The notes below the pieces were generated by a model, which was not told the origin of the DNA, did not search any database, and saw only the letters and a program-made list of their open reading frames with translations. The position numbers and the translations under genes are program-made. A stretch of 64,000 nucleotides of DNA, taken from positions 1-64,000 of the forward strand of contig JAJXWP010000025.1 in assembly GCA_021781575.1 (NCBI GenBank). Reading direction: 5' to 3'. This DNA comes from Pseudomonadota bacterium (GTDB lineage Bacteria > Pseudomonadota > Alphaproteobacteria > Rhodospirillales > Magnetospirillaceae). Positions 25,487-27,256 of this stretch are shown piece after piece. Position 1 is the stretch's first letter; each line of letters starts with the position of its first letter.

Positions 25487-26614
25487 CTAACCGTCCAGCC
25501 TGTTGGAAACGGCGGACGGCAGCTGGCTCATCTTGCCCAGCAGATATTCCAGGTCGTCGGTCTCGAACTCCACCCCCAGATCGCCGTACTGCGTGAGGAT
25601 CCGTTCGATCATCCGGCGCGAGAAGCGTTCGCGGTCACGGGCCTCGCCGTCGTATTGCATATCGCGCGACACGTCGACGGTCGCCCGCATGGCATGGAAG
25701 AACGCCTGGGGCAGACCGGCCTTTTGAAATATGGCGGTGAATCCGCGGCTGCCCGATTCGTGGATCAGCCGCCGCGCATTCTCGATCGGAACGTCGGCCA
25801 GCCGGGCCAGCGCCGCCTCGAAGAAGGTCTGATCACCCATGCACCCGGCTCGCAGGATGATCGACGGGGTCAGGCGCCGGTTGCGGTGCAGGTGCTCGAT
25901 CAATTTGACCGCATCGGTCTCGGTGTTGGTCAGGCCCAACACGGCCAATTCGCGAGCCTGGACCAGCAGCGCCGAGGCAACCTCGGGCGGCAGGTCGCGC
26001 CGCCTCAGCAGGTGGTTGCGGATGTTCTCCGATACCCGGGTCATCAGGCGTTCGGCCACTGTCACCGGCAGGCCGCGGCGCTCGGCCAGCAGACCGCCGA
26101 TGGCGTCATGGGCGCCGAACTGTTCGGCCACGCGCTCCAACATGCCTTCGGCGAACTGCACCCCCTGATTGGCCACCAGGGCGGCGACCGCCGTCTCGTC
26201 GCAACTTTCCACCACCGCCTCGGCGACCGGCGCCGACACCCTGGCGCGGCTGGCCACCGCAGCACGCTTGTCGCTGCCCTGGCTGCGGACGATGTCGATC
26301 AGGTCATCGTCGGTCAGCACTTCGGAGTAACGCAGCATCGGCAGTGCCACCGCGTCTACGTCGCGAGCCAGGGCGATCGCCACGTCGTGCGGAACCAGCG
26401 GATTTTCCTTAAGCTGCCGGGCCAGGGCCTGGCGGACCCGCACCTCGGCATCCTTCACCATCAGGCGGAAGATATCCTCGGCCATCCTGCGCTCGGACTC
26501 GCTGAGGCGCGGATGCCGGGCGGCAACCTTGTCGGCGATATCGGCCCGTGTCCCGCCGTCCGGCGAGGCCAGCAAACGGGCGACATCTTCTTCGCTCAGC
26601 CTGTCATCCACCAC
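25487..26614 (-). CDS. DUF2336 domain protein
   Basis: 375-residue soluble, mostly helical protein with HEAT-like repeats, matching the alphaproteobacterial DUF2336 family (LSEEDVARLLASPDGGTRAD at the N terminus, LSESERRMAEDIFRLM, and a helical C-terminal half). There is no signal peptide and no enzyme motif. Function is unknown; family members are often near signalling genes. The start is GTG at 26614. It is divergent from ruvX, and the large inverted repeat lies in the 171-base gap between them. Confidence 0.85.
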   Translation of the reverse strand: MVDDRLSEEDVARLLASPDGGTRADIADKVAARHPRLSESERRMAEDIFRLMVKDAEVRVRQALARQLKENPLVPHDVAIALARDVDAVALPMLRYSEVLTDDDLIDIVRSQGSDKRAAVASRARVSAPVAEAVVESCDETAVAALVANQGVQFAEGMLERVAEQFGAHDAIGGLLAERRGLPVTVAERLMTRVSENIRNHLLRRRDLPPEVASALLVQARELAVLGLTNTETDAVKLIEHLHRNRRLTPSIILRAGCMGDQTFFEAALARLADVPIENARRLIHESGSRGFTAIFQKAGLPQAFFHAMRATVDVSRDMQYDGEARDRERFSRRMIERILTQYGDLGVEFETDDLEYLLGKMSQLPSAVSNRLDG

Positions 26615-26727
26615 ATGCCATCCAATTCACTGTCTTCGGCCGCCACCATACAACCGTTGGCAAAGCAGCGACAACTGCCGACTGGCCAAATCGCCTTCGC
26701 CCCTCGCCGGGCGAGGCCTATGATAAT

Positions 26728-26777
26728 CCTATGGCTCTGAGGCAAAATGATGTTTCATTTTGCCTCAGAGCCATAGG
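26728..26777. repeat. perfect 23-bp inverted repeat before ruvX
   Basis: Arms 26728-26750 and 26755-26777 are exact reverse complements around a 4-base loop (TGTT). The left arm starts CCTATGGCTCTGAGG and the right arm ends CAGAGCCATAGG. No T tract follows on either strand, so a classic terminator is unlikely. The AGGA ribosome-binding site of ruvX begins inside the right arm, and its ATG is 8 bases after the arm. Confidence 0.9.
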
Positions 26778-26785
26778 ACAACCAT

Positions 26786-27256
26786 ATGCCCATTGTTTCC
26801 ATTACCGGCCTCAAGCCCTTGCTGCAGCGCGACCAACGTCTGCTCGGCCTTGATCTCGGCACCAAAACCATCGGCCTGGCGCTTTCCGACGTCACCTGCA
26901 CGGTCGCTACGCCGCTTTCCACCATCGCCCGGAAGAAGTTCACTTCGGATGTGAAGGAGCTTCTTCATGTGGTCGATTCCGCGGGCGTCGGTGGCCTTGT
27001 CCTCGGCTTGCCGGTGAGCATGGACGGGTCGGAGGGCCCGCGTTGCCAATCGGTTCGCCAGTTCGCCGCCAACCTTCTGGCCCTGCGCGACCTGCCCTTG
27101 GCCTTCCAGGACGAACGGCTATCCACCGCCGCCGTCACCCGGACGCTGCTGGAGGCCGACGCGTCGCGCAAGCGCCGTGCCGAAGTGGTCGACAAGATGG
27201 CCGCGGCCTACATCCTGCAAGGCGCTCTCGACGCCATGGCCCGCCGTGCCCTGTAA
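26786..27256 (+). CDS. ruvX: putative Holliday junction resolvase / pre-16S rRNA nuclease
   Basis: 156 residues of the YqgF/RuvX family, RNase H fold. [17 protein letters not shown] carries the first catalytic Asp, [13 protein letters not shown] the second region (Glu), and DERLSTAAV plus [11 protein letters not shown] the rest. E. coli YqgF processes the 5' end of 16S rRNA, and a Holliday junction role has been proposed for the family. ATG follows an AGGACAACC element that is partly inside the large hairpin. Confidence 0.95.

Follow-up and report, generated by a model that had tools for sequence, protein, structure and literature searches.

The perfect hairpin before ruvX in a Magnetospirillaceae genome is very probably the end module of a dispersed REP/BIME-like repeat

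The described systems closest to the element analysed here are the GTAG REPs and BIMEs with their RAYT/TnpA_REP transposases, in which many short palindromes occur in a mosaic arrangement (PMC3733652, PMC6006769, PMC8266576). GTAG REPs are reported to carry a GTAG or GTGG tag 5' of a hairpin with a stem of 5-13 bp (PMC3733652), and the stems of REP/BIME elements and REPINs are reported to show alternative complementary bases (PMC3733652, PMC3116915). A REPIN is defined as two conserved REPs in inverted orientation that flank a spacer, and REPINs have been linked to RAYTs (PMC3116915). One REP transposase of Stenotrophomonas is described as tolerating changes of GTAG in binding, while its cleavage was reduced when GTAG was changed to CTAG (PMC8266576). 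Hairpin modules are also described at the ends of IS200/IS605 elements as subterminal hairpins (PMC6006769), and the CREE of Neisseria is presented as a small repeat that can lie 5' of genes and change how they are expressed, with effects that involve RNase III and promoters (PMC2649163). No description of a family of CTAG palindromes was found in the accessible open PMC literature, which does not prove that such a family is unpublished.

The window, i.e., the whole stretch of 64,000 nucleotides that was analysed, contains a conspicuous palindrome directly before ruvX. Very probably, it forms the palindromic end of an 86-bp copy of a REP/BIME-like repeat of modular build, whose copies are scattered over this genome and those of a few related species. 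The relevant features are:

139-178, no strand assigned: probable second, shorter palindrome of the family beside the linker-like GGCAAAAGCCAAA (16.3 bits, E 0.069, weak alone)
25487-26614, minus strand: divergent neighbour encoding an SpbR family / DUF2336 protein, also found beside ruvX in the congener G003
26693-26701, plus strand: shortened left linker GCCTTCGCC (family form GCCTTGGTTTTTGCC), placed by eye in comparison with other copies, with an approximate boundary
26702-26716, plus strand: GC-rich hub CCTCGCCGGGCGAGG, a small hairpin whose motif CTCGCCGGGCGRGG recurs in the same genome
26717-26727, plus strand: right linker CCTATGATAAT (family form TNTGATAGAC), recognised by the hub-plus-linker pattern and resembling a -10 box, with no promoter scored
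26727-26778, no strand assigned: perfect palindrome with arms of 24 bp and a loop of 4, of which 26728-26777 aligns gap-free with the 50-nt palindrome of the family
26775-26778, plus strand: Shine-Dalgarno sequence AGGA of ruvX inside the right arm, read from the sequence, with a computed opening energy
26786-27256, plus strand: ruvX (YqgF), 156 aa (TIGR00250, PF03652), with a start codon that aligns with that of the congener

The palindrome is an inverted repeat without a mismatch (arms at 26727-26750 and 26755-26778) that encloses the loop TGTT, spans 52 nt in all and is unique in the window among perfect hairpins with arms of at least 14 bp and loops of up to 20. The original prediction of a perfect 23-bp repeat, forming a 50-base hairpin that ends 8 bases before the ruvX ATG, was correct regarding the perfection of the stem and its location directly before the gene; the arms are one base pair longer than given there, and the spacing to the ATG at 26786 is 7 nt. 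The AGGA, which had been said to begin in the right arm, lies wholly inside it. RNA folding of 26690-26830 resulted in -68.6 kcal/mol (z = -9.4), with none of 200 shuffles being equally stable, and in -44.4 kcal/mol for the hairpin by itself, in agreement with the extreme RNA stability that had been expected. The T tract of a terminator is absent after the stem, as had also been noted, and no terminator-like site was found within 26550-26900. An intrinsic terminator is ruled out by the missing T tract, which leaves the suggested halting of upstream transcripts unsupported. The search of 26400-27100 against Rfam 15 provided no family assignment either: none of the 10 matches at E up to 1 exceeded its gathering score, and the best one, mir-5615, remained far below it (33.5 bits vs 82).

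The palindrome is a member of a dispersed repeat family. A covariance model was built from 12 other copies, with the ruvX copy left out, and its best match in the window is 26728-26777 with 60.8 bits (E 1.2e-13). The identical alignment without structure scored the same palindrome with 22.5 bits (E 5.1e-6); the E-values of both models are rough due to short calibration, and the two arms of a palindrome are not independent evidence. When the ruvX arm was compared with one main left palindrome, which was chosen after seeing the copy, 17 of 23 letters were equal, a value reached by none of 200,000 arm shuffles; for the inner 19 letters, the observed agreement was reached by 23 of 200,000. In addition, the hub CTCGCCGGGCGAGG and a TNTGATA linker adjoin the palindrome, as in other copies of the family. 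Within this family, the ruvX copy stands apart: the letters that it has at arm positions 5, 6, 14 and 20 recur in 1, 1, 2 and 0, respectively, of 41 other distinct copies, and 34 of these 41 carry G at position 5. Instead of CTAG at both feet, it reads CTAT...ATAG, with the partner arm altered to match. Searching the genome for further copies recovered members of the family and no identical ones: BLAST of both strands returned only the ruvX locus, and 20 arm bases had no other match there with up to 3 mismatches. Five arm matches with 3 mismatches in four other genomes were not accepted as family members. The small palindromic mobile sequence that had been offered as an alternative is supported, with the other copies being compensated variants rather than identical ones.

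The copy at ruvX (26693-26778) consists of the shortened left linker, the hub, the right linker CCTATGATAAT and one palindrome. Elsewhere, the family forms a mosaic that starts with a palindrome of about 50 nt (CTAGTGCACTGACACAAACTGA-AGAT-TCAGTTTGTGTCAGTGCACTAG and variants), followed by the linker CCTTGGTTTTTGCC and the GC hub, which appears either as a short hairpin or as a longer GC module. On the other side of the hub, a linker that reads GTCTTTGATAGAC or CTATGATAGAC leads to another palindrome, mostly a shorter one (CCTGGTGCAGTGAACC...GGTTCACTGCACTAGG); partial copies of the repeat are also present. The hub motif CTCGCCGGGCGRGG occurs 35 times in the same genome, five of them in one tandem array, compared with no occurrence of the reversed pattern. 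The pattern combining hub and TNTGATA was searched in 55 genomes and matched in four of them, with 19 matches in the own genome, including the ruvX copy, 6 in G003, 3 in G004, 1 in G018 and none in the controls. A longer linker pattern, by which the ruvX copy is not matched, has 38 matches in the own genome vs 3 in its control. A hub is located within 45 nt of the palindrome in 23 of 43 copies (22 of 42 if the ruvX copy is left out), compared with 23 of 5011 places chosen at random. At 125-382 of L141 (own genome, G000, contig C77), a 67-bp unit made of the repeat's GC module is present as 3.9 tandem copies.

At E up to 1, strand-wise model matches numbered 71 in the own genome, 44 in G003 and 62 in G004, with many palindromes matching on both strands; these correspond to at least 31, 16 and 32 distinct places, respectively. 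The other two genomes of the genus, G001 and G002, had no model match, leaving three positive genomes of five. With the stricter threshold of E up to 1e-6, the model was positive in 6 of 55 genomes of the bacterial family, covering 3 of 17 genera.

To describe the evolution of the arms, stretches were fetched around the 30 other listed places in the own genome and, for G003 and G004, around 13 of 16 and 23 of 32 listed places, respectively. The alignment comprised the 43 places matched over exactly 50 nt, with one strand each and with shorter and longer matches excluded, and it takes in the window's palindrome and most of the model seeds. In this alignment, 90.9% of the cells pair. Changes on both sides of a pair were found in 90 cells (shuffled mean 29.1) and in 16 of the 23 pairs (shuffled mean 8.8), neither of which was reached in 500 shuffles. 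The shuffle test is inflated because the copies are related to one another, and a bias toward pairing is built into the model; the safer control is therefore the one with slid versions of the alignment, which contained 9-16 double-changed cells. Compensated variation of the arms is thus a property of the family. Among the non-Watson-Crick cells at pairs 2-23, there were 37 G.T, 32 A.C and 36 others, i.e., no RNA-strand bias in the pairing pattern. Although the strand of each copy was picked by a model that accepts G.U, G.T and A.C are nearly equal. If selection acted on an RNA made from one strand, G.U should be tolerated more often than A.C; the near equality therefore points to a maintenance of the arms at the DNA level. 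Their complementarity could be preserved because the element has to fold as single-stranded DNA or because one arm serves as template for the other during replication. Pairs 2-23 are without a mismatch in 11 of the 42 distinct copies, the one at ruvX among them, so a perfect stem does not by itself set ruvX apart. What looked like a puzzling lone hairpin is a member of a repeat family whose arms change yet stay self-complementary, without a sign of RNA-strand bias. A general question thereby becomes testable, namely whether the pairing of dispersed bacterial palindromes is preserved because they are selected to fold as single-stranded DNA or because one arm corrects the other.

In the congener G003, ruvX is flanked by the same divergent gene (85% identity over 373 aa), and 91 nt across the start of this gene and the intergenic DNA are common to both genomes, with 84% identity. 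The distance between CAAATC and the ATG is 93 nt in the window vs 25 nt in G003, where the hairpin is absent, and the repeat copy begins where the homology with the G003 leader stops (last alignable base 26692). About 50 nt between spbR and ruvX (26640-26692) are nearly identical in G003 and presumably contain the divergent promoters. For a broader comparison, 110 regions upstream of ruvX protein matches, consisting of the own region and sets of 29 and 80, were scanned in strand orientation for perfect arms with loops of 3-8. Some genomes are present in both sets, and the regions do not represent 110 independent species; in some loci, the protein match starts inside the gene, and two regions are shorter than 200 nt. 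Apart from the own region, none of the 109 regions has a perfect arm of at least 12 bp, the next best arm being 10 bp long, and the GC hub is found only in the own region. A conserved hairpin of ruvX is not what these upstream regions show. Within a flank of 1.5 kb, the spbR neighbour is kept only by G003 among the 29 relatives checked, and for this reason the other relatives are not strict empty sites. Because no target-site duplication is visible at the ruvX copy and only G003 of the 29 keeps the neighbour, insertion rather than loss is judged from one empty site. The repeat copy would have arrived by insertion into the ruvX leader.

Compared with the described systems, the element is probably best read as REP/BIME-like and probably once mobile, with a stem longer than, and a tag other than, those of the GTAG REPs. 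Like GTAG REPs and BIMEs, as they are described, it occurs in a mosaic arrangement and in many dispersed copies with compensated stems, splits into sub-families that differ in their complementary stem bases and carries a tetranucleotide where the hairpin has its foot; a further parallel is a RAYT-like gene of the congener that ends in a CTAG-type repeat. Unlike GTAG REPs, the family carries CTAG at both feet (CTAT in the ruvX copy), its 50-nt type has stems of about 22-24 bp (24 at ruvX) instead of the reported 5-13 bp, and it includes a GC-rich hub and linkers. Because the tag and the stem length do not fit and no intact RAYT is seen in the own genome, the family was not filed as GTAG REP. 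The CGTC REP, described with a CGTC tag and a stem of 8-9 bp (PMC3733652), does not agree with the sequence of the family. The described REPINs are likewise dispersed hairpin elements with compensatory changes (PMC3116915), whereas the unit considered here is a single long, often perfect palindrome joined to a hub. Similar to IS200/IS605 elements (PMC6006769), hairpin modules are located at the ends of the element, and an IS200/IS605 transposase is present in the own genome; however, its scanned locus has no arm of at least 10 bp with up to one mismatch. CREE (PMC2649163) resembles the copy at ruvX as a small repeat that can lie 5' of genes. Overall, the family is of moderate interest for its long, compensated stems and its CTAG tag.

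A search for the mobilising enzyme showed that PF01797 is represented in the own genome only by an IS200/IS605 transposase (NF033573) and a fragment. No intact REP-type transposase (RAYT) was found in this draft of 114 contigs, and all 24 rows obtained with a RAYT query lie within query residues 171-230. The IS200/IS605 transposase (L218, contig C18) is accompanied by a long divergent frame, which we take to be TnpB-like, and a similar pair of frames exists in G003 (L217). The ends of IS200/IS605 elements were rejected as the source of the palindrome, as eight Y1-transposase loci had no hairpin arm of at least 10 bp with up to one mismatch. Due to this limit of one mismatch, the scan missed less perfect palindromes beside RAYT loci, which were later found with up to 4 mismatches.

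In contrast to the own genome, three copies of a REP-type transposase are located on one contig of G003. The copy that was scanned encodes 230 aa and matches NF047646 with 74.4 bits, under the NCBIfam cut-off of 80. The last 40 codons of this transposase (L222 1171-1863, contig C58) and its stop, the TAG of CTAG, are a unit of a different dispersed palindromic repeat with CTAG ends. For the other two copies, the match to the query is limited to residues 1-191, and the 88 matches to the protein in G003 are mostly to its C-terminal repeat end. The genus therefore has a REP-like partnership in which CTAG is the tag. We infer its link to the window's palindrome family from the tag and the co-location only, and the sequence of the palindrome beside the transposase differs from that of the window's family. 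The element would have moved as a single-stranded hairpin via a REP-associated Y1 (HUH) transposase. In 8 of 28 copies in the own genome (L265, L267, L269, L277, L278, L282, L286, L292), a flanking frame ends in the outer bases of the palindrome, with the TAG of CTAG as if it were a stop codon; this count stems from a heuristic simple ORF rule, includes frames that are poor as coding sequences and carries no weight. A far-reaching extension would treat the family as long-stem REPs of a class guided by CTAG. An atypical REP transposase, whose gene can end in such a repeat, would have spread them within part of the bacterial family, the arms would diversify freely by re-templating, and at ruvX a palindrome would have been taken over as ribosome-binding site of a housekeeping gene, making its translation dependent on the opening of the hairpin or on RNase III. 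Taken as a whole, this scenario has a rather small chance of being correct.

For ruvX itself, the right arm would now supply the Shine-Dalgarno sequence, and the leader transcript would carry a partly masked, weakened start. Opening the four Shine-Dalgarno bases was computed to cost 9.8 kcal/mol, compared with 5.1 and 7.0 kcal/mol for two candidate stretches of G003, and opening -14 to -3 costs 17.4 vs 8.9 kcal/mol, with the folded windows being of unequal lengths (221 nt here and 145 nt in G003). Since the Shine-Dalgarno sequence is located at the foot of the stem, the translation start would be weakened and not necessarily blocked. This weakening would not hold if transcription starts downstream of the hairpin or if RNase III cuts the stem, and a perfect stem of more than 20 bp is a possible substrate of this enzyme. 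In the folding model, the masking of the ribosome site is plausible as a side effect of the repeat copy.

Alternatively, the hairpin could be a selected cis-regulatory element that hides the Shine-Dalgarno sequence, with ruvX translation requiring melting of the stem, the aid of another factor or cleavage of the perfect 24-bp stem by RNase III. The position of AGGA wholly in the right arm, the conserved ATG and the nearly doubled cost of opening -14 to -3 relative to the congener would fit such a switch, as would the description of CREE in Neisseria as bound and cut by RNase III (PMC2649163). However, the hairpin is absent from G003 and from the 109 other ruvX upstream regions scanned, and the repeat family, with its held-out model and covariation, explains it. 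Furthermore, the family-wide ratio of G.T to A.C shows no RNA-strand bias, and the four Shine-Dalgarno bases cost only about 3-5 kcal/mol more than the candidates of the congener, computed in folded windows of unequal lengths. A purpose-built regulatory hairpin at ruvX is therefore unlikely. Of the original proposal that the hairpin masks the ribosome-binding site and may block translation, the masking geometry stands, while a selected switch does not. The palindrome probably landed on the ribosome-binding site of ruvX rather than being a conserved switch of this gene, and a hairpin over a ribosome site need not be a regulator.

Even less probable is an outward promoter in the repeat, with TATGATAAT in the right linker acting as a -10 box that drives ruvX and with a transcript that carries the palindrome at its 5' end. 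The recurrence of the linker TATGATA/TTTGATAGA beside palindromes and the description of CREE in Neisseria as able to create promoters at its ends (PMC2649163) are consistent with it, but no sigma-70-like promoter was scored within 26550-26900, and the rows of the longer linker pattern mostly read TTTGATAGAC instead of TATGATAAT. The exact arm sequence has no second occurrence in the own genome. Assembly or chimeric artefacts can create inverted repeats, but a chance or assembly-made palindrome that belongs to no family is scarcely credible given the match of the held-out model, the equal length, the equal loop position and the flanking hub and linker. Elsewhere in the window, the shorter palindrome at 139-178 reads CCTGGCGGACTGGACC...GGTTCAGTGCACCAGG and is likewise accompanied by a linker-like sequence, GGCAAAAGCCAAA.
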